Of a DNA stretch of 64,000 nucleotides, positions 1,785 through 24,189 are shown piece after piece. Every line of letters starts with the position of its first letter. Positions within the stretch are counted from its first letter, which is position 1. Both the position numbers and the translations under genes were made by a program. Source of the DNA: Parvularcula bermudensis HTCC2503 (lineage in GTDB: Bacteria > Pseudomonadota > Alphaproteobacteria > Caulobacterales > Parvularculaceae); NCBI RefSeq assembly GCF_000152825.2, contig NC_014414.1, positions 1,922,001 to 1,986,000 on the forward strand, written 5' to 3'. A model generated the notes under the pieces. It saw only the letters and a list, made by a program, of their open reading frames with translations, was not told where the DNA came from and searched no databases.

Positions 1785-2206
1785 TCGATACGAGCCCGGA
1801 CGGGTTTGCCGAGATTGCGCGACAGACCTATCAATCTCTCCCCAAGGCGTTCAGGCAGCTGAGCGCCGATGTGGTGATCCGTATTGCCAATGTCGCTGAA
1901 TTGGCCGTCCTGGAAGATTTGGGCATTCAGGATCCGATGGAGTTGCTCGGTCTCTATCAGGGGATCGACGTAACCCAAAAAAGCGGCTTCGATGTCATTC
2001 CCGCTCATGACATGGTCTTTCTCTATCGGCAGCCGATCCTCAATTATTGGGTCGAAGGGAACGACGCCCTCGAGGACATCATCGCCCATGTTCTCATCCA
2101 TGAGATCGGCCATCATTTCGGCCTCTCCGACGACGCGATGCATGCCCTCGAAGAGGAGGCGCGCGCCGAAGACCGAACCTGGTATCGTGGTCGTTCCGAT
2201 GACTGA
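1781..2206 (+). CDS. Small zincin-like metallopeptidase family protein
   Basis: 141 residues with HVLIHEIGHHFGLSD near the C-terminus, an HExxHxxG zinc-binding site followed by an acidic residue. This matches the short acidic metallopeptidase family (formerly DUF1025) common in alphaproteobacteria and actinobacteria. The N-terminal part (DVVIRIANVAEL, LLGLYQG) is the usual region of that family. ATG at 1781 overlaps the TGA of the phosphatase gene; a longer reading from 1754 is possible but would overlap that gene by 30 bases. There is no signal peptide. The substrate of the family is unknown. Confidence 0.85.
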   Translation: MIDTSPDGFAEIARQTYQSLPKAFRQLSADVVIRIANVAELAVLEDLGIQDPMELLGLYQGIDVTQKSGFDVIPAHDMVFLYRQPILNYWVEGNDALEDIIAHVLIHEIGHHFGLSDDAMHALEEEARAEDRTWYRGRSDD

Positions 2207-2623
2207 CGAGGTCGCGGTTTAGCCGCGAGGAGGGGAGCCTCCATCGCCTGCTCGTCGTCTCTCACGCCCCCTCTGGCCCACATCCCCTGATTTGCAACCT
2301 TCGGTATTTTGGCGCGGCAGCGTGGGCGAAGGACAGCCTTGGCTTGTGCCGCCGCCGATAGGGAGACCCGCTTAACGAGCGCTGTCGGCGTCACCAAACT
2401 GTAATATTTTCGGCTCGATTGTGGGGCATTTAGTGACATTTCCGTCCAATGGTCTGCAAATAATTGGTTTAATGAGGTTTTTTGTATTGCGGTTTTGTGA
2501 ACTTTCGTTGACGTTAAAGTTACACTGTGGGAAGGCCTAGATATGCGGGTGGCTGGGGAAATTCTCGGTACATCCTTGGCGGGAGATCCCGCTTTCTTCG
2601 ACGATATAATCAGGGAAGTCACA
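2207..2623. other. Intergenic region upstream of the TonB-dependent receptor
   Basis: About 417 bases without a convincing gene. A short hairpin (CGCGG...CCGCG, about 2211-2226) lies just after the metallopeptidase gene but lacks a T-run. The stretch 2395-2525 is clearly more AT-rich than its surroundings and probably holds the receptor promoter: TTGACG at 2508-2513 could be a -35 element, but I find no good -10 at standard spacing. I see no riboswitch or recognised operator. Confidence 0.4.
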
Positions 2624-5515
2624 GTGAACAGACAATTCCACTTGCTCGGTGCAGGGGTTGCCGCGCTCATGACCGCGATTCCGGCCATGGCCTCCGCCCA
2701 AGAAACGGCTGGCGCCTCCAACGACGTCGTTGTCGTGACGGGGTCGAAAATTCCGCGTGAAGATCTTGAGGGGCCAAGCCCCGTCGCCGTTTTCGGCGAA
2801 CAGCAGATCGACCGCTCCGGTGCCGTTTCGATCGGTCGCCTGTTGCGGGAGATCCCGTCCGTGGCCGGCGCCGGTGAAACCCGCGCCATCAACAATAGCG
2901 GGGCCGGGTCCCAAGAGGTGTCGTTGCGGGGCCTTGGTTCCCAGCGGACGCTCGTCCTCATCAACGGTCGCCGCGTTCCCGACAGCTCCGCTGGCCTTGA
3001 AGGTCAGGTTGATCTCAATACGATCCCGGTCTCTCTGATCGAGCGGGTCGAGGTCCTGAAAGATGGCGCGTCCACGGTTTACGGGGCGGATGCGGTCGCG
3101 GGGGTTGTCAATGTCATCCTCCGCCGTGATTTTGAGGGGATTGCCCTCGATTATCAAAAAGGGATTTCGGAACAGGGGGATGCGGAACAAGACAGCGTCT
3201 CGCTGACCCTTGGCGATACCTTCGACAAAGGGAACTTTGTCATCAATTTCAGCCTCACCGAAGAAGGCGAAGTCTCCGCCGGTGATCGCGAGTTCTCCAA
3301 GCAAGCCCGCGATATCGAGCTTGGTGAGCTTATTCCCGGCGGTTCCTCCGCACCGCCCTGGGGACGCTATTTCGTGACCGGCGGTCCGGAACCGTCGGTG
3401 ACCCTTGGGCCGGACTATTCCGGTGGGCCGTTCTTCGGCTACCAAGGCTTCCAGTTTGCGGAAGACGCCTACAATTTTGCGCCGATTAACCATCAGGCCC
3501 AGCCGCTGGATCGCTGGTCGGCGACCTTTATCGCGAACTACGATGTGGACGTCCTGTCCGACGGTCCCTTCTTCCTCGATACAGAGCTGTTCACCGAAGT
3601 CAGCTATGTCGACCGGCAAAGCCAGCAACAGCTCGCTGAGGTACCCCTCGCGCCGCTCGCCTTCTTTGGATTCGATGCGCCTTATTCGGCGGATAACGGG
3701 TATAACCCCTTCGGTCAGGAGATCAGTGACTGGCGCCGCCGGATTGTGGAAACCGGTGGCCGGACGGATGACGTCCAGGTCAAGACCTTCCGTACGGTGC
3801 TCGGCGCCCGGGGTGAGCTGCCGCGCGATTGGTCGTGGGAGTTCTCTTACTCTTACGGTGATGTCGATCGGACTTCGTCCTTCTTCCCGATCATCGACCT
3901 GAACAAGACCGCCTTGGCGGTGGGGCCGACGGCGATGGACGGCGACGGGGTGCTCCGTTGCGATACCGACAGCGACGGTGACTTTACGGACGCGGACGAT
4001 CAGACCTGTGTGCCCCTCGATGTCTTCGGCGAGAACTCGATCACCCCTGAGATGATCGATTACATCGCGATCACCCAGAACGAATCGACCGAAGCGACCA
4101 GCGAAATCTTCGCCTTGGACCTGGTCAATCCATCGATCTTTACCCTGCCTGCTGGGGATGTCGGCATCGCGGTCGGTTATGTTCACCGGTCCGAAGAGGG
4201 GACGTTCACGCCGGACAGCCAGGTGGCGGCCCTTGGTGGGGCGGCAACCGGGACACCGTCCCAGGCGACCGTCGGCGGCTATGAGCTTGATGAGTTCTTC
4301 GGAGAGGTCCGCGTGCCGATCCTCGCGGATCGTCCACTTGCTGATGAGTTGACCGTCGAGGCGGGGATCCGGTGGTCGGATTATGACACCTTCGGTGACA
4401 CCACCAATTACAAGGTGGGTCTGACCTATCGTCCGGTTTCGGATGTCCTGCTGCGCGGGTCGGTCAACACCGCTTTCCGGGCACCGCAGATCGAGGATCT
4501 GTTCGGGGGAGCTGAGTTCTCCTTCCCGTCCACGACCGACCCGTGCGCCTCGAACCCGAGCCAGTTCTGTATCGACGATGGCGTCCCCCCCGGCGGCTTC
4601 GACCAATTGTCGAGCCAGGTGCGGACAATCGAAGGCGGGAACGTGGATCTCCAACCCGAAGAGGCGGATATCTTCACGGTCGGTGCCGTCTACACGCCGT
4701 CACAGATTCCCGGCCTGGCCCTTGGTCTCGACTATTACGATTATGAGATCACCGATGCCATCACCACCATCGGGGCCAGCGTTATCCTGCAGGAATGTGC
4801 CGCGACGGGTGAGTTCTGTGAGCTGATCGATCGTCTCGACAATCCCGGCGAAGTGACGGACGGGGCGCCGATCCTGGTCGACAACCGCACCACCAATGTG
4901 GGGCAGATCGAAACCCAAGGCGTCGATTTCTTCATCGAATATGTCGACATTCCCGCCGGTCCGGGCGAGATCACGGCCCGCCTGCAAGGGACCTATACCG
5001 ATACCTTTGACCTGACCCAGGCCAATGGAACGGTCGTTCCCCATGCCGGTTATTTCCGTGACGACAATGAGGGGCACTTTGCCAAGCTGCGCCTCAATTC
5101 CGAACTGGCCTATACGGTGGGCGGGTTCACCGGCTCGATCACCGGGCGGTTCATCGACAGCGTCGAAGAGTTCGGCGAAGATCTCTTCGGCTCATGCGTC
5201 AATGATGGCGGTTTTGTTATCACGCCGGGCGTCAATGCAGGGCTCACTTGCGTTGGCGAGCGGAGCAGCCTGGCGGCGTCTCCGGTCGATGTCGGCAAGT
5301 TCCATCGCCGCATCGAAGCGGTCACCTACTGGGATGTGTATGCGGAATATCTGATGCCCATCGAGCAGGTCGAAACCATCCTTTATATGGGGATCGACAA
5401 TCTGCTCGACGAGCAACCGCCCCTCTCGGTCGATGGGTTCAACGACAACACCGATGTGCGGACCTACGACACGATCGGTCGCTTCCTCTATGGCGGGATC
5501 CGGACGAAGTTCTAA
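2624..5515 (+). CDS. TonB-dependent outer-membrane receptor
   Basis: 963 residues from GTG at 2624, chosen because it gives a clean Sec signal peptide (MNRQFHLLGAGVAALMTAIP, cleavage about AMASA-QE). A plug domain follows: VVVVTGSKIPREDLEG, IGRLLREIPSV, VSLRGLGSQRTLVLINGRRV, and the ERVEVLKDGASTVYGADAVAGVVNVI block that characterises plugs. The rest is a 22-strand barrel with RGSVNTAFRAPQIEDLF and the C-terminal aromatic end GGIRTKF. The class is like the large marine alphaproteobacterial receptors for peptides or carbohydrates rather than a recognised siderophore receptor. No regulator or transport partner lies beside it. An Asp-rich, Cys-flanked loop sits near 3950-4020. Confidence 0.93.
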   Translation: MNRQFHLLGAGVAALMTAIPAMASAQETAGASNDVVVVTGSKIPREDLEGPSPVAVFGEQQIDRSGAVSIGRLLREIPSVAGAGETRAINNSGAGSQEVSLRGLGSQRTLVLINGRRVPDSSAGLEGQVDLNTIPVSLIERVEVLKDGASTVYGADAVAGVVNVILRRDFEGIALDYQKGISEQGDAEQDSVSLTLGDTFDKGNFVINFSLTEEGEVSAGDREFSKQARDIELGELIPGGSSAPPWGRYFVTGGPEPSVTLGPDYSGGPFFGYQGFQFAEDAYNFAPINHQAQPLDRWSATFIANYDVDVLSDGPFFLDTELFTEVSYVDRQSQQQLAEVPLAPLAFFGFDAPYSADNGYNPFGQEISDWRRRIVETGGRTDDVQVKTFRTVLGARGELPRDWSWEFSYSYGDVDRTSSFFPIIDLNKTALAVGPTAMDGDGVLRCDTDSDGDFTDADDQTCVPLDVFGENSITPEMIDYIAITQNESTEATSEIFALDLVNPSIFTLPAGDVGIAVGYVHRSEEGTFTPDSQVAALGGAATGTPSQATVGGYELDEFFGEVRVPILADRPLADELTVEAGIRWSDYDTFGDTTNYKVGLTYRPVSDVLLRGSVNTAFRAPQIEDLFGGAEFSFPSTTDPCASNPSQFCIDDGVPPGGFDQLSSQVRTIEGGNVDLQPEEADIFTVGAVYTPSQIPGLALGLDYYDYEITDAITTIGASVILQECAATGEFCELIDRLDNPGEVTDGAPILVDNRTTNVGQIETQGVDFFIEYVDIPAGPGEITARLQGTYTDTFDLTQANGTVVPHAGYFRDDNEGHFAKLRLNSELAYTVGGFTGSITGRFIDSVEEFGEDLFGSCVNDGGFVITPGVNAGLTCVGERSSLAASPVDVGKFHRRIEAVTYWDVYAEYLMPIEQVETILYMGIDNLLDEQPPLSVDGFNDNTDVRTYDTIGRFLYGGIRTKF

Positions 5516-5537
5516 TCCATCGCTTACTGACGAAACG

Positions 5538-5569
5538 AAACACCCGGCAGCGATGCCGGGTGTTTTTTT
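5538..5569 (+). terminator. Intrinsic terminator of the TonB-dependent receptor gene
   Basis: Nine-base-pair stem CACCCGGCA / TGCCGGGTG with a GCGA loop, preceded by AAA and followed by seven T. It lies 23 bases after the receptor stop codon. Confidence 0.92.
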
Positions 5570-5741
5570 GTTTATGGAGATGGGCGCGAGAAGGAGAGCG
5601 TCCTTTATCTTTGGGGTCGTGACGGTCTGCCGACGGTCCGTGAGAGCCGTTTCAATGCGATGGACGTTGCGGAACGTCTCCAGGGTCTTGGTTAACCGTA
5701 TTTCCGCCGTGCGAATCGGTAAGCACTTCGCTGAAATGGCA

Positions 5742-6683
5742 CTAGGCCATTGACCATTCCCGACCTGTGGCCTCTTCGCAGACCGACCATAATTGCTTGG
5801 CGACCTGCGGATCCTTTGCCCACGGTTTGATCGCGGCTTCGCCAACCGGACCTTTCATCTCTTGAAAGCCAGTGGGGCCGTAGAGGACGCCGGGTTGTGC
5901 CTTTGGATAGGCGGCGGCTAGTACCGTCGGCAAAGCACCTTTCTCAGCGGGCTGAGAAAATATCATCGTAAATGGTTTGATGAGCGTGCCTAAGATCGCG
6001 CCGGGACCGGCGCTTTGCAGATTGGTATCGGAATACCCCGGATGGGCGATATAGCTGCCGGCGGATTTTCCCGCCGCACTCAACCGACGATGTAGCTCCA
6101 GACCAAGCATCAGATCGGCTAGCTTCGATTTAGCGTAGGACGATGTCGGGGAGTAGCCCGCCGCATAGCCAAGATCGGTGAGCTTTGGGTGCTTGGCATA
6201 ATGGTGCGCGATGCTCGACAGCCACACGAACCGCCCGCTTGCCGTTTCGACGAGATCGGCCAGGGCGGCGGCGAGGGCGAAATGCGACAGGACATTGACC
6301 TGATACTGCATCTCAAACCCGTCCTTGGTAATCTGCCGCCGTGGCAGCATCATCACCCCCGCATTGAGGATCAGCCCATCGAGGCGGTCGGTGGCTTGTC
6401 TGATGGCATCGGTGGCGGGGGACAGGGTCGAAAAATCGGCCAGGTCGAGGGAGATCGTCTCGTATTTCCCGCCCGGCGCCGACTGGCGCAGCGCGTTCCT
6501 GGCACTTTCCGCCTTACTCGCGTTACGGCAGAGCATCAGAACGGTGGCATTGCGACCGCCAAGATAGCGTGCCGCCTCAAGCCCGATACCGGAATTGGCG
6601 CCGGTAATGGCAAAGGTTTTGCCCGTCAAATCAGGCAAATGCTCTGCCGTGAACCCGTCGCTGCCAAATTGCTTATCCGCCAT
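5742..6683 (-). CDS. Short-chain dehydrogenase/reductase
   Basis: 313 residues of the classical SDR fold: cofactor motif GANSGIGLEAA at about 28-38, the NAG motif (LILNAGVMM), the Ser of WLSSIAHHY and the YAKSK catalytic Tyr/Lys pair. Length and C-terminal layout resemble the retinol dehydrogenase/WW-domain oxidoreductase-like branch, which is NADP-dependent, but the substrate cannot be read from sequence. Its ATG lies inside the last 11 bases of mazG, so it is the downstream gene of a mazG-SDR pair. There is no signal peptide. Confidence 0.88.
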   Translation of the reverse strand: MADKQFGSDGFTAEHLPDLTGKTFAITGANSGIGLEAARYLGGRNATVLMLCRNASKAESARNALRQSAPGGKYETISLDLADFSTLSPATDAIRQATDRLDGLILNAGVMMLPRRQITKDGFEMQYQVNVLSHFALAAALADLVETASGRFVWLSSIAHHYAKHPKLTDLGYAAGYSPTSSYAKSKLADLMLGLELHRRLSAAGKSAGSYIAHPGYSDTNLQSAGPGAILGTLIKPFTMIFSQPAEKGALPTVLAAAYPKAQPGVLYGPTGFQEMKGPVGEAAIKPWAKDPQVAKQLWSVCEEATGREWSMA

Positions 6684-7500
6684 TCATTGTCTCCCGTTCC
6701 ACTCGTTTTGCGTCCTGCCAATAGGCCTCGAGCTCTTCGAGCCGGTGGTCGTCCCACCCCCGGCCGCTCCGCTGAACCTGCCGTTCAATATGGCCGAACC
6801 GGCGCGCGAATTTCTGATTGCCGCCGCGCAGAATGTCTTCAGCATGCAGCCCCAGATGTTGGGTTAAAGTGGTGACGGTAAAGAGGACGTCGCCGATTTC
6901 ATCAGCGATGGCCGCCTCGTCGCCGGTGGCGAGGGCCTCCTCGACCTCTGCAATTTCCTCGTGCAACTTCTCAAGGACGGCGTCGGGGGTCGGCCAGTTG
7001 AACCCTAAACGGGCCGCCCGCTTGCAATATTTCTCCGCTCTTGTCAGCGCGGGGAGGGTGAGGGGCACGTCGTCCAGGACACTCGCGTCCTTGCCCTTCG
7101 CTGCCCGTTCCGCCGCTTTATGATCCTCCCACGCGGTGGCCTGGCCCTCGGCGGAGCGCTGCGCCGCGGCGCCGAAAACATGGGGATGACGGCGGATCAT
7201 CTTGGTCGAGATACTGTCGAGCACATCTTCGAGCGTGAAGGCGCCGCGCTCCTTGGCCATTTGGGCGTGAAAGACGACCTGTAACAGGAGGTCGCCCAGC
7301 TCTTCACACAGGTCGCGATCATCGTCCCGTTCAATGGCATCGACCACTTCATAGGCTTCTTCGAGAGCGTAACGGGCAATCGACCGATGGGTCTGGGTCA
7401 CATCCCACGGGCACCCCGTCTCGGGGTCGCGTAGCCGAGCCATAATCTCGACCAGCGCATCGAGGGTACGAGGCGGGGCGTTCAGCGGGGCGGTGGTCAT
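6673..7500 (-). CDS. mazG: Nucleoside triphosphate pyrophosphohydrolase MazG
   Basis: 275 residues with two tandem MazG folds. The first carries CPWDVTQTH, LEEAYEVVDAIE and EELGDLLLQVVFHAQ, giving the ExxE...ExxD metal-binding pattern; the second repeats it with LHEEIAEVEEAL and DEIGDVLFTV. MazG hydrolyses NTPs and dNTPs to the monophosphate and pyrophosphate as a house-cleaning enzyme. ATG at 7500 is preceded by AAAGGA at good spacing; a TTG two codons upstream is less likely. It is divergent from ilvE and overlaps the SDR gene downstream. Confidence 0.93.
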   Translation of the reverse strand: MTTAPLNAPPRTLDALVEIMARLRDPETGCPWDVTQTHRSIARYALEEAYEVVDAIERDDDRDLCEELGDLLLQVVFHAQMAKERGAFTLEDVLDSISTKMIRRHPHVFGAAAQRSAEGQATAWEDHKAAERAAKGKDASVLDDVPLTLPALTRAEKYCKRAARLGFNWPTPDAVLEKLHEEIAEVEEALATGDEAAIADEIGDVLFTVTTLTQHLGLHAEDILRGGNQKFARRFGHIERQVQRSGRGWDDHRLEELEAYWQDAKRVERETMNGG

Positions 7501-9385: not shown

Positions 9386-10828
9386 TTACGAGGACGCAGC
9401 GGTCCCCGCCGCCTCGGCGCGGTCGAGAAGGGGGGGGAGGTGCCCACCGAAGCTCCCCGAACTGAGGATCAAGAGAAAATCCTTTGACGGCGATAGCGTT
9501 GGTAAAATATCGACGATCGCCGCCGGATCGGGGAGGGGGGTAACCGTCTCGTTGTTTGCCCTAATCCGTTCGACGATCTCATCGAGGCTCGCCTGGTCGT
9601 GACTGCCCGCCGCGGTCTCAGGGGGGGCGGCGACATAGACCTGATCGACCCCGTCGAAGGCCCGGTCATATTGGTCCAGGGCCTTTTTGTTCCGCCAGGT
9701 GAAGGTATGGGGCTCAAACAGGACCACAAGTCGGCGATCGGGAAAGTGCAGGCGGGCCGCCTCGATTGCTGACCGCGCTTTTTCGAGGGAGGAGCCGAAC
9801 CCCTCGTAAATGAGATAAGGTCCGTTCTCCGCCTTTCGGTCGAGACGTCGGGTCAGCCCCTGAAAGGCGCCCACCGCTTCCCTGAACAGGGCGGGGCTCA
9901 TTTGCTTTTCGCCGAGCAGATAGGCGGCCGCCCCGCAGATATTCTGGACCGCGTGGCGGCCCAGCTCCAGGGTTTGCATGCCGGCGATCAACTCGCCGCG
10001 GGCCAGCAGGTCAAAACGCGTTGGCGTTCCCTCGAGCGGATCTCCCGGCTTAATGGCTCGCGCGGTGAAATCGGCCCCCTCGACCAACCCGTAGCTGACT
10101 TTCGTGCCGTCATAATCATCAAAAAAACGGGCCGCGTGCCGTTCGTCCGTACACGCAACAAAACACCCCTCACGCGTCGCCAGGTCTTGAAGAAGGGCGC
10201 CGAAAGGGCGGTGATAATCGGCAAGGGTCGGGAAGACGTTTACGTGGTCATGGGTGGCGGAGGTCAAGACCACTGTATGCGGCTGATAATGAAGAAACTT
10301 CGAGCGATCGTCAAAATTCGCACTCGGATATTCATCGCCCTCGAAAATGAATGGACCGGTCCCCCCAATATGGGAGGAATGGGAAAGGCCGCGGGGGATG
10401 GCGCCGATGAACCAGCCTGGATCACGCTCGGCAAACAGCAGCGCGTGGGTAATGAGAGTGGAGAGGCTCGACTTACCGTAAGACCCCGCAACGACCGTCC
10501 GCCGCCTGTCCTCGGTCAGTTGCGCCAGGACTTGCGGAAAGGATCGTACACGATCGGCGTAGTACGAGAACGCCGCGCGCACCTCTTCATTGGTTTCGGG
10601 CACCAGGGTTGCATGCTTGCCGATCACGATGAGATCGGGATCACTCGGCAGATTGTCGGCGCGGTGCCCCTCGATCGGGTGGAGGCCGAGTTGGGTCAGG
10701 TAGGTACTGACCGGCGGATAGATCCCACTATCGCTGCCGGTCACTTCATATCCGGTTTGTTGAAGCAGGCGAGCGACGGCCGACATGCCGGCGCCGCAAA
10801 TTCCGATCAGATGCGCGCGTTTGGTCAT
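9386..10828 (-). CDS. mpl: Mpl-type murein tripeptide ligase (atypical motifs)
   Basis: 480 residues of the Mur ligase family, MurC/Mpl branch: HLIGICGAGMSAVARLL at the start and FEGDEYPSANFDDRSKFLHY, whose DEY...DxRSKF block is an Mpl hallmark. Mpl joins UDP-MurNAc to the tripeptide L-Ala-D-Glu-mDAP recovered from wall turnover. Odd points: the P-loop is GSYGKSS rather than GTHGKTT, and the usual DFAHHP-type site reads EGFGSS. FEPHTFTWRNK resembles the subtype I remember from Bacteroidetes (LHTFSS). It lies just before rnpB and the dcw cluster but on the opposite strand. Family certain, exact substrate less so. Confidence 0.8.
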   Translation of the reverse strand: MTKRAHLIGICGAGMSAVARLLQQTGYEVTGSDSGIYPPVSTYLTQLGLHPIEGHRADNLPSDPDLIVIGKHATLVPETNEEVRAAFSYYADRVRSFPQVLAQLTEDRRRTVVAGSYGKSSLSTLITHALLFAERDPGWFIGAIPRGLSHSSHIGGTGPFIFEGDEYPSANFDDRSKFLHYQPHTVVLTSATHDHVNVFPTLADYHRPFGALLQDLATREGCFVACTDERHAARFFDDYDGTKVSYGLVEGADFTARAIKPGDPLEGTPTRFDLLARGELIAGMQTLELGRHAVQNICGAAAYLLGEKQMSPALFREAVGAFQGLTRRLDRKAENGPYLIYEGFGSSLEKARSAIEAARLHFPDRRLVVLFEPHTFTWRNKKALDQYDRAFDGVDQVYVAAPPETAAGSHDQASLDEIVERIRANNETVTPLPDPAAIVDILPTLSPSKDFLLILSSGSFGGHLPPLLDRAEAAGTAASS

Positions 10829-10952
10829 GATCACGGGCTAGCAAGTGCCGCGGCCAGGGCGAAGCAAAATGCGTTTCTTCTGCGATTGACGGCTTGTCGG
10901 CGAGCGATCCTTATCGCTTGACCTCTGGTCTCTGGCGACGGACATGACCTCG

Positions 10953-13448: not shown

Positions 13449-15129
13449 GCCGATCTCTCCCGAGGCCGATGTCACCTTCAGGCTCAAGCTCTGCGCCGTC
13501 GCTTTCTTCGGCCTTTTCGGTCTTTTGCTGCTGCGGTTGGGGATGGTGTCCTTTGGCGGCGAGGTGAGCCTTCGGTACGACCAGGACGCGCGCGCCGAGA
13601 TCAGAGCCCCAAGGGCGATCGTCGACCGGGTGGGCCGTCCCTTGGCAATGAATACCAACCTCATCGGTCTGGCCGTCGATGGGCGGGAGGTAACGGACCC
13701 CGAGGAGATCGCCGCGCGTCTCTTGCCGCTATTTCCCGATCTCGATACGGCGCGTCTGACTTCTCGGCTGGCGCGTGGCCGCTATGTCCATTTGTTCAAT
13801 GCGATCACGGACAAAGAGCGTCAGGCGGTGATTGCCCTTGGTCTGCCGGGGGTCCGATTCCCTGAAAGCCAGGGCCGGGCCTATCCGCAAAAAAGCCTCG
13901 CAGCCCATATTGTGGGCTATCGCATTCCCGGCGAAGGGGGGGCGGTGGGCGCTGAAAAAGCCCTAGATGCGGGCTCCCTGTCCCCCGGAGGGAGAGAGCC
14001 GGTGGCCCTCTCGATCGATCTGGTGGCGCAGCAAATCCTCGAAGAAGAACTGGCGCGTGCCCTTGAGACCTTTTCGGGCAAGGCGGCGTGGGGGGTCCTT
14101 CTCGATGTCCATACGGGGCAGGTCCGCGCCTTGGCCAATCTGCCGACCTTCAATCCCAATCGTCCCGGGGCCTTCCCGGCGGCCTCCTGGCGCAACCGGG
14201 CCATGTCCGACCGGTATGAGCTCGGCTCGGCTTTCAAGCCCTTGACCGTCGCGGCGGCGTTTGATGCGGGGGTGATTGCGCCATCTGAAACCTTTGATGT
14301 CGCCACACCGCTTGAGATCGGCGGGTGGGAGATCGATGATTACAGCCGCAAAAAGCCCTTCATGACGCCCGCTGAAATCGTCCAATATTCGTCGAATATC
14401 GGGACGATCAGGATCGTTCAACGATTGGGAACGGCGCGCTTTACGCAAATGTTGGAGGCGCTCAATCTCTCCTCTCCGCTTTTTACTGAGTTGCCGGAGG
14501 CCCGCGATCCGGCCCTGTCGACGGAATGGCGGCCGTCGGAATTGGCCTCCAGTTCCTATGGCCACGGCATCGCCGTCAGCCCCTTACAATTGACGGCGGC
14601 CTTTGCGGCAGTGGTCAATGGCGGTGTCTACCGTACCCCAACCTTCCTGAATGAGGCGACTGTTCCTGGTCGGCGTATCTTCCGTCCCGAAACCAGCAAA
14701 CGCATGAAATTGATTTTAAGGCGGACGGTTACGGACGGTACTGCGCGCAATGCCCGCGCCCCAGGCTATTATCCGATCGGGAAAACAGCGACGGCGGACA
14801 AGCCTGTCGCGGGCGGATATCGCGATGAAGGGGGGCAATTGATCTCAAGCTTTATCGGTGCCTTTCCCGGCTACGACCCTCAATACGTCCTTTTGGTCTC
14901 CGTGGATGAGCCGAAGGGCACGCGTGAAACCTATGGATTTGCCACCGCGGGCTATGTCGCGGCGCCCGCCTTTTCGCGAATTGTGGAGCGCGTGGCGCCG
15001 ACCCTCGACATCATGCCCGCCTCCGACGCCGTGGCGGCCGACGGGTTTTTAGGGCTGCGTCGGGAAATCGCTCAACGACCCGCCGAAACCGATGCGCTGG
15101 CCCGCTTAATGGAAGAGGCGTTGCGGTAA
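13441..15129 (+). CDS. ftsI: Septal transpeptidase FtsI (PBP3) with altered KTG motif
   Basis: 562 residues: a membrane anchor at 17-34, a pedestal domain (RAPRAIVDRVGRPLA), then the transpeptidase domain. Catalytic motif 1 is SAFK at 263-266 and motif 2 is SSN at 317-319. Motif 3 reads GKTATA at 447-452, so the third residue of the normal KTG triad is Ala. The end VDEPKGTRETYGFATAG is typical FtsI. ATG at 13441 is chosen over the GTG at 13423 because it overlaps ftsL by eight bases like its neighbours. It cross-links septal peptidoglycan with FtsW. The KTA change is confirmed directly in the bases 14782-14790. Confidence 0.93.
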   Translation: MSEPISPEADVTFRLKLCAVAFFGLFGLLLLRLGMVSFGGEVSLRYDQDARAEIRAPRAIVDRVGRPLAMNTNLIGLAVDGREVTDPEEIAARLLPLFPDLDTARLTSRLARGRYVHLFNAITDKERQAVIALGLPGVRFPESQGRAYPQKSLAAHIVGYRIPGEGGAVGAEKALDAGSLSPGGREPVALSIDLVAQQILEEELARALETFSGKAAWGVLLDVHTGQVRALANLPTFNPNRPGAFPAASWRNRAMSDRYELGSAFKPLTVAAAFDAGVIAPSETFDVATPLEIGGWEIDDYSRKKPFMTPAEIVQYSSNIGTIRIVQRLGTARFTQMLEALNLSSPLFTELPEARDPALSTEWRPSELASSSYGHGIAVSPLQLTAAFAAVVNGGVYRTPTFLNEATVPGRRIFRPETSKRMKLILRRTVTDGTARNARAPGYYPIGKTATADKPVAGGYRDEGGQLISSFIGAFPGYDPQYVLLVSVDEPKGTRETYGFATAGYVAAPAFSRIVERVAPTLDIMPASDAVAADGFLGLRREIAQRPAETDALARLMEEALR

Positions 15130-16571
15130 TGCGTTTGTCCGACCTCATCCCCCTCGACGGCCATCTGGATGCGGAGATTACCGGCCTGACGGCGGATTCC
15201 CGTCAGGTGAAGCCAGGCTTTCTCTTTGCGGCCCTGCCGGGGGAGACGACCGACGGTCGGCGGTATATCGATCAGGCCATTGCGGCCGGGGCGGCGGCCA
15301 TCTTGGCGCCGACAGGGACGACCGCGACAGTCCCCGTCCTGGCCGACGACAATCCTCGCCAGGCGCTGGCTATGCTGGCCGCCCGTTTTCACGCGGGCCA
15401 ACCAAAGTGCATTGTCGGCGTGACCGGTACGAACGGGAAGACCTCCGTCGCGCGGTTCGTTGCACAGCTTTGGTCGGCTTTTGGCCATTCTGCGGGCACG
15501 GTCGGCACCTTGGGGGCTAGCGCCCCGGGCTATGATTACGCGCTGCGCCACACGACCCCCGATCCCGTGGAGCTGCACCAGGTGATCTCCACCATGGCGG
15601 CGATGGGAACGACCCATCTGGCGATGGAAGTGTCCTCCCACGGTCTTGCCCAACATAGGGCCGACGGCGTCCGATTTTCCCATGCCGGCTTTACGAATAT
15701 TACCCAGGACCATCTCGATTATCATCCAAGCTTTGAGGCCTATTTCGCCGCCAAAATGCGCCTACTGACGGCCCTTCTTCCCGAGACGGGCCAAGCGGTG
15801 ATCACCACCGACGGTGCCGGCGCAGAGGGGGCAATCGAGGCCGCGCAGGGGGCGGGCAGACGGGTGCTGACCGTTGGACGGCGCGGCGAGACGCTCAAGC
15901 TCTTATCGTGTGTGCCCCATCAAGGCGGATTGGCATTGACAGTGTCCGTCGAGGAGGGCCCCGCCCAGAGTGTCGCGCTTTCATTGATCGGTGATTTCCA
16001 GGCGGACAATGCTCTTGTGGCGGCGGGGTTGGTCATCGCGTCGGGGGCGGAGCCGGAGGCGGTTATCGAGGCGATGGCCAAGCTCTCCGCCGCGCCGGGG
16101 CGTATGCAGCCCGCCGGGCAAAAATCATGTGAGGGGGGGATGGCATCGGCCTTTGTCGATTATGCCCATACCCCCGATGCCATTGCGACCGCCTTGCGGG
16201 CCATCAAACCCCATGTCCCCGGCGGGCGTGTGGTGGTGGTGATCGGGGCCGGCGGTGATCGCGACCGGACCAAACGGCCCTTAATGGGGCGGGCGGCGGC
16301 GGCGGGCGCCGATCTGGTCATTGTCACCGACGACAATCCGCGTTCTGAAGACCCAGCGGCGATCAGATCCCAGGTCGCCGAGGGCGCCCCCGGGGCGCAG
16401 ATCATCGGCGGGCGCGAAGCGGCGATCAGAGCGGGGGCCGAGGCCTTGAAGGCGGGGGACGTTCTCCTGGTGACCGGCAAGGGCCATGAGCAGACCCAGA
16501 CCATCGGCCACGTGACCTATCCCTTCGATGATGTGTCGACGACCCTTGCGGCCATGGGAGGTGAGGGATGA
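15129..16571 (+). CDS. murE: UDP-MurNAc-L-Ala-D-Glu:meso-DAP ligase MurE
   Basis: 480 residues with canonical Mur ligase motifs: P-loop GVTGTNGKTS, NITQDHLDYH with the following KMRLL lysine, VDYAHTPDA and GAGGDRDRTKRPLMG. The DNPRSEDP motif marks specificity for meso-diaminopimelate rather than lysine. It adds the third residue of the stem peptide in the cytosol. The ATG shares one base with the ftsI stop and the end overlaps murF by four, in the usual dcw order. Confidence 0.97.
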   Translation: MRLSDLIPLDGHLDAEITGLTADSRQVKPGFLFAALPGETTDGRRYIDQAIAAGAAAILAPTGTTATVPVLADDNPRQALAMLAARFHAGQPKCIVGVTGTNGKTSVARFVAQLWSAFGHSAGTVGTLGASAPGYDYALRHTTPDPVELHQVISTMAAMGTTHLAMEVSSHGLAQHRADGVRFSHAGFTNITQDHLDYHPSFEAYFAAKMRLLTALLPETGQAVITTDGAGAEGAIEAAQGAGRRVLTVGRRGETLKLLSCVPHQGGLALTVSVEEGPAQSVALSLIGDFQADNALVAAGLVIASGAEPEAVIEAMAKLSAAPGRMQPAGQKSCEGGMASAFVDYAHTPDAIATALRAIKPHVPGGRVVVVIGAGGDRDRTKRPLMGRAAAAGADLVIVTDDNPRSEDPAAIRSQVAEGAPGAQIIGGREAAIRAGAEALKAGDVLLVTGKGHEQTQTIGHVTYPFDDVSTTLAAMGGEG

Positions 16572-18004
16572 CCGACGCCCCCCTCTGGACCGTGCGAGAA
16601 ATCATTGCCGCCACCGGCGCCGCCTTAAGAGGGGCAGGGGAGGGGGAGACCTTGGGCGAGCGGCCGGTTTACGGTCTTTCCTTCGATACGAGAAGCTTGG
16701 CCAAGGGCGATCTGTTCATCGCCCTCAGCGGGGCGCGGGATGGGCACGACTTTGCCCAAGCCGCGGCGGATAAAGGCGCCGCGGCGGCGCTGTTGACCCA
16801 TCGCCCGGCGGATCTTTCCGAGGCGCTGCCCGGCCTGATGGTCGATGACCCCTTGCGGGCGCTTGAGGATTTGGCGCGGGCGGCACGGCAACGGTGCTTC
16901 GGGGCCCTGGTCGCCGTGACGGGAAGCGTTGGAAAGACGACGACCAAGGAGATGCTTCGGGCGGCGCTTTCCCCTCTGGGCGAGGTTCATGCCGCGGCGA
17001 AGAGCTTTAACAATCATATCGGCGTCCCGATTTCTCTTGCGAGCCTGCCTCAACAGGCGGCCTTTGGCGTGTTCGAAATCGGCATGAATCACGCCGGCGA
17101 GATCACCCCGCTCGTCGATCTCGTCCGCCCGCATGTGGCGATCATCACGAGTGTAGCGGCGGTTCATTTGGAAAACTTCTCCTCCGTGGACGGGATTGCC
17201 GACGCCAAGGCCGAGATTTTGTCGGGGATCCGGCGCGGCGGCGCGGCTGTCCTGCCGTCGGATAATCCGTATTATGAGCGGCTGGTGTCGCGCGCTCGGG
17301 AATGCGGTGTCGAGCGCATCGTGCCCTTTGGCTTTGGCGATGGCGCGCGGCCCGGTATCTGGGGCACCGCACCAGTGATGATTGAGGGCGGGAGCAGAAC
17401 CGAGATCGCCATCGCCGGGGAGCGCCATGTCCTGGAGCTGGGCGTGCCTGGCACCCATCAGGTCTCCAACGCCCTTGCGGTCATCGCGGCCGGCGCGGCC
17501 CTCGGCCTCGACCTTGAGTCGATGATCGAGGGATTGGCCTCCTTCAGAGCGGGGGCGGGCCGCGGGGCGCGCCATCATGTGACGATCAGGGGCAAAAAAG
17601 TGCTCGTCCTCGACGAAAGCTACAACGCCAACCCCACCTCGATGGCCTCGGCCCTGGCGCAATTGGGCGAGACTGAGCCCGTGGCAGGAGGACGCCGCCT
17701 CGCCGTCTTGGGGGAAATGAAAGAGCTCGGGCCGACAAGTGACGCGCTCCATGCCGGTCTTGCCGGCCCCATCGAAGACGCGGGCACGGCCAGGGTCTGG
17801 CTGGCCGGCAGCGGGATGGCGCCGTTGCGCGACGCCCTGCCTGCCGATCGCGTGGCGGAATGGGCGCCGAAGGCCCCGGATCTCCTGTCAAATCTCGTAG
17901 ATTCGCTCGAACAGGGTGACGTTGTTCTCTTCAAGGGGTCCAACGCGGCCGGAATCGGCGCACTGCTTGAGGCGTTTCTAGCCAAGACCGATAGGGCGGG
18001 GTAG
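16568..18004 (+). CDS. murF: UDP-MurNAc-tripeptide:D-Ala-D-Ala ligase MurF
   Basis: 478 residues. Intact catalytic motifs: P-loop [49 protein letters not shown] and [13 protein letters not shown]. It attaches D-Ala-D-Ala made by Ddl (encoded later in the cluster) to complete UDP-MurNAc-pentapeptide. ATGA overlap with murE; nine bases separate it from mraY. Nothing unusual. Confidence 0.97.
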
Positions 18005-18012
18005 CGCGCGTT

Positions 18013-19119
18013 ATGTTGTATCATCTTCTCACCCCGTTCGCCGAAGAGATCATTCTCTTCAACGTCTTCAACTACATCACCTTCAGGACCGGGGGCGCGT
18101 TGATGACGGCGCTCCTGATCTCTTTCGTGATCGGTCCGCCACTTATTCGGTGGATGCGCGTGCGCCAGGGCAAGGGCCAGCCGATCCGCACAGACGGGCC
18201 GCAATCCCATATCATCGAAAAGGCAGGGACGCCGACAATGGGCGGGGTCCTGATCTTGCTCAGTGTGGTGATCGCCGTTCTGCTCTGGGCGCCCCTCGAT
18301 AATCCCTATGTCTGGACCGTGCTCGGTGTGACCGTGGGGTTCGGCCTCCTTGGTTTTGTCGATGATTATCTCAAGGTCACGAAGCAAAATACCAAAGGGG
18401 TCGTCGGGTCCTCTAAACTGGTGTTTCAGTTTGCCCTTGCGCTGCTGGCCGGGGCGGTTTGCGTGGCCGTCCTGCGCTCCACCGAAGGGGTGGATCCGGC
18501 GGTGGCGACGGCGGTGGACGTGCCGTTCATCAAGGAGTGGATGATCCCCCTTGGGCTCTTCATTTACCCCTTCGCCGCCCTCGTGATCGTCGGCTCTTCA
18601 AACGCGGTGAACATGACCGACGGTCTCGATGGGCTCGCCATTGTGCCGGTGATGATCGCGGCCGCCAGCTTCGCCTTGATCGCCTACCTTGTGGGGCGGG
18701 CGGATTATACGGCCTATCTGGGACTGATCTATGTCCCCGGTGTCGGAGAGCTGGCCGTGATCGGCGGTGCCATTCTAGGCGCAGGCTTGGGCTTTTTGTG
18801 GTTCAACGCGCCGCCGGCGATGATCTTTATGGGGGATACGGGCTCCTTATCCCTGGGCGGAGCGCTTGGCGCCATCGCGGTGGCGGTAAAGCACGAAATC
18901 GTCCTTGCGATCATTGGCGGGTTGTTCGTTTTCGAGGCTGTCTCGGTGATGATCCAGATCGCGTCGTTCAAGCTGACGGGCAAACGCGTGTTTCGCATGG
19001 CGCCCGTACATCACCATTTCGAACAACTCGGCTGGAAGGAATCGACCATCGTGATCCGGTTCTGGATCATTGCGGTCATCCTTGCCCTGATTGGTCTCAG
19101 CTCACTCAAATTGCGATAG
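18013..19119 (+). CDS. mraY: Phospho-MurNAc-pentapeptide translocase MraY
   Basis: 368 residues with about ten membrane segments. All catalytic signatures are intact: [12 protein letters not shown], the DD pair in [32 protein letters not shown] and APVHHHFE. It transfers phospho-MurNAc-pentapeptide to undecaprenyl phosphate on the inner face of the membrane, making lipid I. It lies between murF and murD. Its intact motifs are a useful contrast with the degenerate WecA-like protein at 42368. Confidence 0.98.
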
Positions 19120-19131
19120 GAAGAAAAGGCC

Positions 19132-20484
19132 ATGATCCCCCTCCCCCTGTTCGATCAACGTATCGTGGGCGTCCTCGGCCTCGGGCCCTCCGGCCTCGCG
19201 GTGGTGGAGGCGCTGACGGCCGGCGGGGCGCGGGTGATCGCGTGGGATGCCGAAGAAGCCGCTCGGGCGAGCTGCGGTGCCGACATTCTCGCTGTCGAGG
19301 ATTGGCCGATCGCCGAGATGGCCGCAATCATCCTGGCGGATGGGGACCGTGATGGTCTGTCGCGCCAGGTGGTGGTCGCCGCGGGGGAGGGGGAGACGGA
19401 AGTCCTGACCGATCTCGATCTCTTTGCCTTGGGCCTCGAGAAATCCGGTCATCGTGACGATGTGAATGTGATCGCCGTGACGGGGGCGGCGGGGAAATCC
19501 GTCACCATCTCGATCATCGCCCATATTTTGCGGGAGCAGGGCCGCGCGGTCGCCATCGGCGGCGATCTTGGCGCGCCATTCCTTGGCTTGCCCGCCCCGA
19601 ATGAGGGGATGACCTATCTGCTCGAACTCCCCGTACGGCGTCTGACCACGGTTCGCCGGATGCGGACGGACGTTTCCATCGTTCTCAATGTGGCGGGTCG
19701 TCGACCCACGGCGGAAATCGAACTCGCCCTCCGGTCTCTTCTCAAGATCTATCGCTCGCAAAATGCGGGGGACACGGCGATCGTCGGTGTCGATGATCCG
19801 ATCGGGCAGAAGGTTTGCACATTGCTGCGGTCCGGTCGGGCGGATGTTGCGACCATCGGGACCGTGATCCCCGTTTCCGGTGAGGCCAGCCTCGGCCATG
19901 GGGTCTTTGTGCTCGACGGGGCGGCGTATTCGGCAAAACGCGGTCGAACCCAGACCTTGGGCGATTTTTCGAGAGCGGATGGATTTTTGGGGACGCATTT
20001 CAATCAGGATGCGGCGGCGGCGACCGCCGCGTGTCTCAGCATGGGGATTGCCCCAGCGATGATCGTGAAATCCCTGCACAGCTATTCAGGGCTCCCCGGC
20101 CGGTTCGAATGCCTCGGCGCGGCGGGCAAGGTCATTTTCGTCGATGATAGCTATGCCAGTTGCCAGACGGCGGCGGAGCGGGCGGTCAATGCCTGTCCCA
20201 ATGTGTTCTGGATAGGCGGCGGGCCGGTTTCAGAGGGGGGAGAGGTGCCGATCGCCGCCTCGGCGATCAACGGGGCCTATTTCCTTGGCGACGGCAAATC
20301 CTCTGGTGAGACCCTGCCCTCCGCCTTCGAAGCCGCTTTCCTCGATGCAAGAGCCTTTGCGGACAAGGATCCCGATGCGGCGCCTGTTGTCCTGTTCTCC
20401 CCCGGCGTGCCCGCCGCTCAAGGCGGGTTTGCCCCAGACGAATTCCGCAGCTTGGCCGCGCAGGTCATCGATACGAGATATTGA
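19132..20484 (+). CDS. murD: MurD homologue with degenerate catalytic motifs
   Basis: 450 residues in the exact dcw position of murD (after mraY, before ftsW). The N-terminal Rossmann part (VGVLGLGPSGLAVVEAL) and overall length fit MurD, but key sites have changed. The P-loop is TGAAGKSVT (117-125) instead of TGTNGKSTT. ELSSFQL is ELPVRRL (165-171). NISPDHLDRH is replaced by NVAGRRPTAE (186-195). The carbamylated Lys site near RSLLKIY is not conserved in my alignment by eye. DSKATN is DSYASC (339-344). The final SPACAS block is SPGVPA. The frame is open and codon use is like its neighbours. It may be a pseudoenzyme or a strongly diverged ligase; a normal MurD may lie elsewhere. Confidence 0.75.
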   Translation: MIPLPLFDQRIVGVLGLGPSGLAVVEALTAGGARVIAWDAEEAARASCGADILAVEDWPIAEMAAIILADGDRDGLSRQVVVAAGEGETEVLTDLDLFALGLEKSGHRDDVNVIAVTGAAGKSVTISIIAHILREQGRAVAIGGDLGAPFLGLPAPNEGMTYLLELPVRRLTTVRRMRTDVSIVLNVAGRRPTAEIELALRSLLKIYRSQNAGDTAIVGVDDPIGQKVCTLLRSGRADVATIGTVIPVSGEASLGHGVFVLDGAAYSAKRGRTQTLGDFSRADGFLGTHFNQDAAAATAACLSMGIAPAMIVKSLHSYSGLPGRFECLGAAGKVIFVDDSYASCQTAAERAVNACPNVFWIGGGPVSEGGEVPIAASAINGAYFLGDGKSSGETLPSAFEAAFLDARAFADKDPDAAPVVLFSPGVPAAQGGFAPDEFRSLAAQVIDTRY

Positions 20485-20485
20485 T

Positions 20486-21634
20486 ATGGCGGATACGGCG
20501 GTTTTTGAACAACGGTTGGCGGCGGCGGCCTCACCTGGGCGGGAGGGGAGCCTCAAGACGTGGTGGCGATCCCTCGACAAGCCCCTCCTCGGGGCGATCG
20601 GCAGTCTTATCTTGATCGGGGTGGTGCTGGCCGCGGCGGCGGGGCCTGTGGCGGCGTTCCGAAAAGGGATCGCCGATCCGCTGCACTTCGTCGAACGGCA
20701 ATATCTTTTTCTGGGCCCGGCGCTTCTGTGCTTGGGGTTCACTTCGCTCTTGGCGGTCAGGCAGGTGCGCGCCGCCGGAATCGTCCTTGCCGGGATGGCT
20801 TTCGGGATGATGCTGCTCACCCTGATCCTTGGGGAGACGATCAACGGGGCCAATCGATGGCTCTCCTTTGCGGGGTTTAGCCTTCAGCCGTCGGAGTTCT
20901 TCAAGCCGGGCTTTGCGTTGATGGCCTCACTGCTGCTTGCCGAGCAGGCGCGGACCAAGGATTTCCCCGGCGGCATGATGTCCGCCGCTCTGTTTGCTGC
21001 GGGGGCGATCGTCCTGCTCTTACAGCCCGATTTCGGACAGCTCTTTCTGCTCACCGCCATTTGGGGCACGGTCTTCTTCGTTGCGGGGTGGAATTGGCTG
21101 TGGATAGGCGGGCTTGGCACTGTGGTGTCCGGGATTTTAGCCTTCGGGTATACATTCGCGCCCCATTTCCGCAGTCGGATCGACCGGTTTTTCGATCCCT
21201 CTTCGGGGGATACCTATCAGGTCGACATGGCGCTCAAGACGGTGGCGGCCGGCGGGGCGGCTGGGTATCGGCTGAACGATGCGCAAAGCGTTAAGAACGC
21301 GCTTCCCGATGCGCACACGGATTTTATCTTTGCCGTCGCGGCGGAGGAATTTGGTTTCTTGCTGGGGGCCATCATCATCGGCTTGTTTGCGACCATCGCC
21401 TATCGGTGTCTCAAGGCGGCCTTCTCAACGGAAGACGTCTTTTGCCGCTGCGCCATATTGGGCCTTGCGGCGCATCTGTGCTTCCAGGCGTTCATCAATA
21501 TCGGTGTGACCCTGTCTGTGCTGCCGGCCAAGGGGATGACCCTTCCCTTTATCTCCTATGGCGGCTCGTCGCTCATCGGGGCGGCCCTGTCGGCAGGATT
21601 TCTTCTTGCATTGACCCGTCGACAGCCGGCGTGA
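20486..21634 (+). CDS. ftsW: Septal glycosyltransferase FtsW (SEDS family)
   Basis: 382 residues with about ten membrane segments. SEDS landmarks: INGANRWLSFAGFSLQPSEFFK, the LLLQPDFGQ motif holding the proposed catalytic Asp, the PDAHTDFIFAVAAEEFGFL loop and the end LPAKGMTLPFISYGGSS. It polymerises septal glycan from lipid II together with FtsI. ATG at 20486 begins two bases after the murD stop and precedes a short cytosolic tail; the longer reading from 20285 overlaps murD and is rejected. The stop overlaps the murG start. Confidence 0.96.
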   Translation: MADTAVFEQRLAAAASPGREGSLKTWWRSLDKPLLGAIGSLILIGVVLAAAAGPVAAFRKGIADPLHFVERQYLFLGPALLCLGFTSLLAVRQVRAAGIVLAGMAFGMMLLTLILGETINGANRWLSFAGFSLQPSEFFKPGFALMASLLLAEQARTKDFPGGMMSAALFAAGAIVLLLQPDFGQLFLLTAIWGTVFFVAGWNWLWIGGLGTVVSGILAFGYTFAPHFRSRIDRFFDPSSGDTYQVDMALKTVAAGGAAGYRLNDAQSVKNALPDAHTDFIFAVAAEEFGFLLGAIIIGLFATIAYRCLKAAFSTEDVFCRCAILGLAAHLCFQAFINIGVTLSVLPAKGMTLPFISYGGSSLIGAALSAGFLLALTRRQPA

Positions 21635-22767: not shown

Positions 22768-24189
22768 ATGCGTATGCCCAACCCCGAGACCATCAAGATC
22801 AATGTGCCGTTTCCGGTCGGCACCATCCATTTCGTCGGCATTGGCGGCATCGGGATGAGCGGCATCGCCGAGATCATGAACAATCTCGGCTATCGTATTC
22901 AGGGAAGCGATATTCAGGACGGCCCCCAGGTCGCGCGCCTGCGGGAGCAGGGGATCAGCGTTCAGATCGGTCACCGGGCGGCGAATGTCGAGAATGTCGA
23001 CGCCGTGGTGGTCTCGACGGCGATCGGCCAGGACAATCCCGAATTGGCCGCGGCGCGCGCGCGCCACGTCCCCGTGGTTCGCCGTGCCGACATGCTGGCG
23101 GAACTGATGCGCCTCAAATGGAATGTGTGCGTTGCGGGGACGCATGGAAAAACGACAACGACCTCGATGATCGGGAGCCTGCTCGATGCCGGCGATCTCG
23201 ATCCCACGGTCATCAATGGCGGGATCATCAATAATTACGCCTCGAACGCCCGGCCGGGCACCGGCGATTGGATGGTGGTGGAGGCTGATGAGAGCGATGG
23301 GACCTTTATCCGCTTGCCCGCCACCGTGGGGGTCATCACCAATATCGACCCTGAACATCTCGACCATTATGGTGATTTTGCAGGGGTTCGGGCGGCATTC
23401 GATCAATTCGTGGCCAACTTGCCGTTCTACGGGTTCGCCGCTGTGTGTCTTGACCACCCCGAGGTGCAGGCGCTGGTGGGGCGGGTGACGGATCGACGGC
23501 TGATCACCTATGGCTTTAACCCGCAGGCCGATGTGCGGGCGGAAAATCTCGACCCCACCGAAGAAGGATCTCGGTTCGACATTATTTTCCGTAAGGACGA
23601 TATCGTCCGGCTGGAAGGGATCACGCTGCCCATGCCCGGGCGGCACAATGTCTTAAACGCGCTCGCCGCGGCGATTGTCGCGCGGGAAATGGGGGTCCCC
23701 GAAGACGCGATACGAGACGGCTTTGCCCGCTTTCGCGGGGTTCGCCGACGGTTCACCGAAGTGGGCAAATACCGTGGGGCCCGGATCATTGACGATTACG
23801 GTCATCATCCGGTGGAAATTGCCGCGACCCTGTCGGCCGCGCGCACGGTGGCTCGGGGGCGGGTGATCGCCGTCATGCAGCCCCATCGCTATACACGCCT
23901 CCAGCAGCTGTTTGATGCTTTTTGCGGCTGTTTCAACGACGCCGACCTCGTGATGGTCGGCGATGTGTATCCGGCGGGCGAAATGCCGATCGAGGGGATG
24001 GACAAACGCGCCCTGGCCGATGGCATTGCCCGCCACGGCCACCGTGGGGTTGAGGTGATCGAGGCATGGGGGGGCTTAAGCCAGCGTCTTCGGGATGAAT
24101 TACAGGATGGCGATGTGGTCATTTGCCTTGGCGCCGGGGACATCACCAAGCACGCCGCGACCCTGTCTAAGGAGCTGACGGAGGTATGA
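22768..24189 (+). CDS. murC: UDP-MurNAc:L-alanine ligase MurC
   Basis: 473 residues with standard MurC motifs: [17 protein letters not shown]-loop [47 protein letters not shown] and [12 protein letters not shown]. It starts the stem peptide by adding L-Ala to UDP-MurNAc. The end overlaps murB by four bases. Its complete motifs show that the lineage does not generally tolerate loose Mur-ligase signatures, which sharpens the contrast with the MurD homologue upstream. Confidence 0.97.

Follow-up and report, generated by a model that had tools for sequence, protein, structure and literature searches.

In the 64,000-nucleotide stretch of the Parvularcula bermudensis HTCC2503 genome analyzed here (NC_014414.1, positions 1,922,001 to 1,986,000; hereafter, the window), the gene in the murD slot of the division and cell wall (dcw) cluster encodes a protein of MurD fold that has lost most of the MurD catalytic residues. 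The same genome carries a second, intact MurD next to a MurL homolog, and related genomes keep degenerate dcw copies under purifying selection. With a probability of about 60%, we propose that the window gene is the original dcw MurD, displaced from its reaction and now serving the cell-wall assembly as a structural or regulatory partner without catalysis.

Active site and fold of the dcw-encoded MurD

A sequence-only reading of this DNA had described an intact 450-codon frame in the murD slot with five altered motifs. Our analysis agrees: the frame runs uninterrupted from ATG to TGA in the order mraY-murD-ftsW, beginning 12 bp after mraY and ending 1 bp before ftsW, and all the quoted motifs are present in its translation. 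An artifact of frame or reading can be discarded, since relatives share the same residue losses. The murD model TIGR01087 scores the protein at 117.3 bits (E = 8.8e-34), below the curated cut-off of 211.95, and the Pfam Mur middle domain is barely detected (18.5 bits, cut-off 24). The gene and its motifs, read from alignments, are as follows, with counts referring to 18 degenerate copies from the family that are described below.

19132..20484, + strand: degenerate dcw murD (putative MurD-fold pseudoenzyme, 450 aa), assigned from the open frame, the score under the TIGR01087 cut-off, the residue table and the structural model
19480..19506, + strand: P-loop TGAAGKSVT, with the Lys (E. coli K115) retained, as in 18 of 18 degenerate copies
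19624..19644, + strand: ELPVRRL replacing ELSSFQL, with the Glu (E157) retained, as in 13 of 18 degenerate copies
19687..19716, + strand: NVAGRRPTAE replacing the N(I/L)SPDHxxRH stretch, with D182 and H183 lost and, beyond it, Leu in the K198 column
20143..20163, + strand: DDSYASC replacing NDSKATN, with D317 retained, K319 lost, T321 changed to Ser and the N316D change common to 17 of 18 degenerate copies
20398..20415, + strand: SPGVPA replacing SPACAS, with S415 lost and F422, past the motif, lost as well

Residues are numbered as in E. coli MurD without its Met, and the alignments, of 22 and 25 rows, included E. coli MurD and five canonical relatives from the family, in all of which every listed site position is intact. 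Compared with E. coli MurD, the window protein carries N138D, D182R, H183R, K198L, N268F, N271D, H301G, K319Y, T321S and S415A, of which N138D and T321S are conservative; F422 has no aligned counterpart, and the K348 column is a gap in one alignment and Ser in another. The claim that most catalytic signatures were gone thus held up, yet K115 of the P-loop, E157, R302 and D317 stay. The replacement of the carbamylated Lys was likewise correct, the K198 column being Leu. We also looked in the alignments for a catalytic Lys or His at a shifted position: no His lies nearby, and the closest Lys follows the K198 column by two residues, within the helix (193-208) predicted for both.

None of K348, T321, S415 and F422, which we take to be the D-glutamate (D-Glu) site of MurD, is retained (T321 being Ser). 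The relevant passage of a review places Asp182 and Lys348 near D-Glu in MurD (PMC8788868), and a crystallographic paper, in the part that deals with Lys198, describes its carbamoylation as essential for MurD activation and Lys198 mutants as considerably less active (PMC4816537). Judged by its residues, the window protein has very likely lost D-Glu ligase activity and probably still binds nucleotide. Its fold is retained, because an AlphaFold2 model, built with 10 family sequences, reached a predicted local distance difference test score of 84.4 and a predicted template modeling (TM) score of 0.85, and because the first 31 of the 50 Foldseek matches shown are MurD structures (the best being 8v8w, E = 4.1e-22, TM score of 0.70).

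The putative MurD2/MurL pair and the supply of D-Glu

The sequence-only reading had suggested that a true second MurD might lie elsewhere, and this enzyme exists. In the complete genome (one contig of 2,902,643 bases, 99.99% complete), it is encoded at C1:2075967-2077253 (-), about 134 kb from the window gene, scores 249.4 bits, over the TIGR01087 cut-off, and carries K115, N138, E157, H183, K198, R302, D317 and T321, together with a K348R change. Adjoining it is a MurL homolog of 479 aa that matches NF041275 at 281.6 bits (E = 8.6e-84) over 425 of 447 positions, the cut-off of this model, which is named for Xanthomonadales, being 700. In the portion of the review that treats this route, MurD2 adds L-Glu, MurL epimerizes the product, positions 182 and 348 set the choice between L- and D-Glu in Xanthomonas MurD2, and Parvularcula is among the listed holders (PMC8788868). 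The second MurD and the MurL homolog therefore most likely represent the known MurD2/MurL route, so that the glutamate step would be carried out by a different but known chemistry and the window gene would be the remnant of the replaced step. A simple loss of function without replacement is ruled out by the second MurD, and a mere duplication of the dcw MurD is ruled out by the MurD tree, in which dcw copies and MurD2 form two separate groups (100/99).

The MurD2 of this genome (L039:5468-6754 (-)) combines Arg348 with Asp182, while Glu182 occurs in the seven other MurD2 rows tabulated (18 MurD2 were found). Given Asp182, this enzyme may be less strict in its choice between L- and D-Glu.

Neither a glutamate racemase (TIGR00067) nor a D-amino-acid transaminase (NF005209) matched over its cut-off in the window's genome. 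We surveyed 60 Parvularculaceae genomes, including Parvularcula oceani, P. dongshanensis, a Parvularcula metagenome-assembled genome (MAG), two Aquisalinus species and Parvularculaceae MAGs, and found a MurL match in 20. Glutamate racemase (MurI) passed the cut-off in 0 of the 60 (8 gave weak matches), and the transaminase did so in none of the 20 genomes with a MurL match versus 36 of the 40 others, which indicates that genomes with a degenerate MurD mostly lack a D-Glu source of the two kinds tested. These data bear on the idea that the window protein is a divergent yet active D-Glu ligase working alongside MurD2. Its synteny and fold are those of MurD, but the D-Glu pocket and Lys198 are lost, no racemase or transaminase match is there to supply D-Glu, and an intact MurD2-type enzyme is present; we give this idea almost no credence.

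Retention, selection and probable order of loss in the Parvularculaceae

Degeneration of the dcw murD largely accompanies MurL across the family. Of the 20 genomes that match MurL, 16 have a degenerate dcw murD and 1 has a canonical one, whereas in the other 3 the gene is missing or was not found. Eighteen degenerate copies, namely, these 16 and those of two genomes without a MurL match (G041 and G038), were read residue by residue. K115 and D317 are retained in all 18, R302 in 16 and E157 in 13, and H183 is lost in 17; a Lys stands in the 198 column of only two copies (G002 and G027), both of which lack E157 and H183.

The degenerate copies are not decaying. Ratios of nonsynonymous to synonymous substitution rates (dN/dS), computed by the Nei-Gojobori method, were obtained for the degenerate copy in four pairs of genomes. 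Between Aquisalinus flavus and A. luteolus, the ratio is 0.063 for the degenerate murD, with 0.068 for MurE, 0.081 for MurF, 0.019 for MraY, 0.042 for FtsW, 0.125 for MurG and 0.038 for MurC; in the same pair (G029/G007, matched to these two species by their contig coordinates), MurD2 and MurL give 0.061 and 0.097. A second pair (G004 and G013) gives 0.075 for the degenerate murD, 0.097 for MurE, 0.091 for MurF and 0.015 for MraY. The window gene and its counterpart in G011 form a distant, less certain pair (dS above 1), with 0.200 for the degenerate murD, 0.210 for MurE and 0.272 for MurF; the fourth pair is taken up below. In a fifth pair (G031/G035), murD did not pair, a probable result of its frame in G031 being open far upstream, and three close-pair rows with dN/dS above 1 and one at 0.55 were taken as spurious frames overlapping genes. 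Furthermore, no stop was found in the matched stretches of the 18 degenerate copies (one, in G019, is cut by a contig end, and the matches of the G023 group cover part of the query), whereas a neutral simulation that started from a canonical gene and allowed substitutions only, with no indels, stayed stop-free in 2 of 200 runs when carried to 63% identity and in 0 of 200 when carried to 48%. Together, the low dN/dS and the lack of stops show that the gene has been constrained at the amino-acid level after loss of the ligase site. The strength of purifying selection is roughly that seen for MurE and MurF, and in all four pairs a dN/dS well under 1 goes with lost catalytic residues, the pattern of a pseudoenzyme under such selection.

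These results weigh on the proposal that the gene is still awaiting deletion, either as a pseudogene in decay or as no more than a translational spacer separating mraY from ftsW. Such a proposal would fit the absence of the gene from G015, where 166 bp separate mraY from ftsW, and the fast divergence of the G023 group. However, simulated drift nearly always leaves stops, the observed dN/dS is far below 1 and close to the MurE and MurF values, and a spacer would not conserve amino acids. We regard this proposal as quite improbable.

A second proposal is a new enzyme, that is, a neofunctionalized Mur ligase that would have kept the adenosine triphosphate (ATP) chemistry and taken another substrate. 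The low dN/dS and the retention of K115, D317, R302 and E157 at the counts given above would suit it, as would the derived changes shared by the diverged copies. All 15 diverged copies in the alignment have H301G, N316D and A362G (only the last in window numbering), and a fourth change occurs in 14 of them. H301G and N316D presumably resemble the PGR and DD forms of other Mur ligases. On the other hand, 16 of the 18 copies no longer have Lys198, and the remaining two, with a Lys in that column, lack Glu157 and His183. Glu157 itself is missing from 5 of the 18, of which 4 belong to one sublineage, and four derived, nearly uniform positions do not make a clear new site. We consider a new enzyme unlikely. 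The sequence-only reading had left the choice between a pseudoenzyme and a new catalytic variant; the pseudoenzyme with a second MurD is now well supported by the intact second enzyme, by the degenerate dcw copy in 16 of the 20 genomes with a MurL match and by the dN/dS, and what weight the variant keeps comes from the conserved ATP-site residues.

The displaced-MurD reading gains a history from the trees. A tree of MraY and FtsW was built from 24 rows; G041 and G019 were omitted as too short, and of the 40 genomes lacking a MurL match, only 5 were taken. A branch at 96/92 sets the 19 rows that match MurL or carry a degenerate copy apart from the 5 that do neither; G005 is the first to branch, and the remaining 18 join at 100/100. 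In the MurD tree (40 rows, G013 and G019 being absent), the 16 degenerate copies used are grouped (87/86), G005 again being basal; the stem that leads to the other 15 measures 0.71 (100/100), and the one that leads to the G023 group measures 2.14. The degenerate copies thus descend from a canonical dcw MurD. The copy in G005 is the mildest, with E157K, K198M, D182V, K319S, T321S and Pro for S415 (its C-terminal end is cut in the residue alignments, and this Pro was read from the full copy), and it retains H183 and N138 and scores 309 bits against TIGR01087. By these residues, it looks like an early stage of inactivation. The likely order is canonical, inactivated, remodeled and, in one branch, lost.

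A possible non-catalytic role and its relation to known systems

Several observations weigh against a kept structural or regulatory role. First, such a role is not universal even among MurL genomes: a search with the window protein did not find a dcw murD in G015, G025 or G033 (nor did it give a match in G009, G052 or G053). In G033, mraY was not seen on the ftsW contig, and in G025 (L073, about 1110-6900), the two genes are separated by about 5.8 kb with other frames within. Second, G041 and G038 combine a degenerate copy with a transaminase over the cut-off and no MurL match; both are draft, MAG-like assemblies (G038, 89% complete, is split into about 320 contigs, and G041, with 6% contamination, into about 700). 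Third, G049 carries MurL and MurD2 on C229 (C229:17159-19838, L055) and a canonical dcw murD on C132, with Pro in alignment column 415. This genome has no transaminase over the cut-off, its MurD2 falls outside the family MurD2 group and its assembly is listed as 4% contaminated; it is probably a mixed bin, or else it may have received MurL/MurD2 in a separate transfer. Fourth, the sublineage of G023, G002, G038 and G027 has also lost Glu157 and diverged fast, and for G023 versus G002, the dN/dS of the degenerate murD (0.291) is a little over that of MurF (0.252; MurE, 0.200), a less certain comparison with dS above 1.

Fifth, the cell-wall assembly of MurL bacteria does not generally need such a copy. 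MurL matches were found in 17 of 385 genomes across the class and in 20 of 398 across the phylum, the window's genome being in both. A profile of the degenerate copies, which recovered the held-out copies of G002 and G023 at 226.8 and 234.4 bits, found no such copy in the 33 other MurL genomes taken (15 + 18, of which 6 were less than 90% complete; G145, with a weak match, and G567, with a split one, were left out). Its matches there fell on MurD2 places, one canonical-scoring MurD (G535) and one place taken as murC (G352), and one of these genomes (G132) has a murEF-mraY-ftsW-murG-murC cluster that lacks murD. A degenerate dcw MurD is thus not a general feature of MurL bacteria, and retention after the replacement is seen so far only in the Parvularculaceae.

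Two further observations concern these same genomes. By eye, one of the frames in the mraY-ftsW insert of G025 is like an AAA/OLD-type ATPase and another is hydrolase-like. G535 holds a MurD of 355.2 bits (C2:88529-89836) together with a MurD2/MurL pair (C3:970964-973671) and may represent an earlier step in such a replacement.

Considering all these data, we propose the following model for displacement of the dcw MurD. The MurD2/MurL route would have taken over the glutamate step, and the D-Glu-making transaminase would have been lost, leaving MurD without a job. Subsequently, one branch would have lost murD altogether, while in the others the protein would have lost His183, Lys198 and the D-Glu pocket but retained its MurD fold, together with the P-loop and the portion of the nucleotide site that includes Arg302 and Asp317. 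The retained copy would then have come under purifying selection of about the strength seen for MurE and MurF, and its present job may be that of a non-catalytic structural or regulatory partner in an assembly of MurE, MurF, MurG, MraY and FtsW, the proteins encoded by its neighboring genes.

Mur ligases are classic examples of essential enzymes and of drug targets. Binding studies have led to the proposal that they also play a structural role, although it is hard to separate from catalysis. In the part of one study that discusses MurG as a possible scaffold, MurG is said, from earlier work, to bind MurD, MurE and MurF of Thermotoga (PMC6420597), which makes a binding role of MurD plausible. 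A more general idea follows, which we hold tentatively, at somewhat under even odds: MurD may have a second, non-catalytic function, such as binding MurG, MraY, MurE/F or FtsW, possibly gated by nucleotide, and in the Parvularculaceae catalysis would have passed to MurD2/MurL, with the old protein kept for that function alone as a natural separation-of-function MurD. Evolution seems to have separated the two roles here, as a MurD without a ligase site is selected about like its active neighbors and the reaction is done elsewhere. The family would thus offer a staged record (canonical, just inactivated, remodeled, absent) of how an essential gene retires after pathway replacement, and deletion of a degenerate dcw murD could probe the structural role without touching precursor synthesis. 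We found no report of a retained non-catalytic MurD in the open-access literature on MurD or Mur-ligase pseudoenzymes or on MurD in Parvularcula.

The cluster genes around the degenerate murD in the window are the following.

15129..16571, + strand: murE (NF001124, 566.7 bits, over cut-off)
16568..18004, + strand: murF (TIGR01143, 372.2 bits, over cut-off)
18013..19119, + strand: mraY, the upstream neighbor that fixes the murD slot (open reading frame; of 26 dcw loci searched, 25 have a homolog, which in one locus is a 56-residue piece)
20486..21634, + strand: ftsW, the downstream neighbor (open reading frame; homolog in 25 of 26 dcw loci searched)
22768..24189, + strand: murC (TIGR01082, 518.7 bits, over cut-off)

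A further Mur ligase lies upstream of the dcw cluster, at 9386-10834 (-) of the window. It scores 211.1 bits as murC (cut-off 335.1) and 188.9 as mpl (cut-off 388.7), passing neither, and is perhaps a divergent recycling ligase.

Compared with known systems, the window protein resembles the canonical dcw MurD of E. coli and of its family relatives in cluster slot, fold, P-loop Lys, E157, R302 and D317. It differs from them by the loss of H183, K198, K348, S415 and F422, by N138D and T321S and by its score below the TIGR01087 cut-off. With respect to the MurD2/MurL route of Xanthomonas, homologs of both enzymes adjoin each other in the window's genome, whose own MurD2 carries K348R but keeps Asp182 where the reviewed Xanthomonas enzyme has Glu; the window gene is neither of the two, lacking D182E, K348R and the catalytic site. 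The third likeness is to PAP11, the MurE-like subunit of the plastid RNA polymerase, which our search of solved-structure sequences also matched (8r5o and others). PAP11, which is not known to have ligase activity, belongs to the MurE lineage and to another complex; like the dcw MurD of P. bermudensis in the role we propose, it is a Mur-ligase homolog that forms part of a larger complex.
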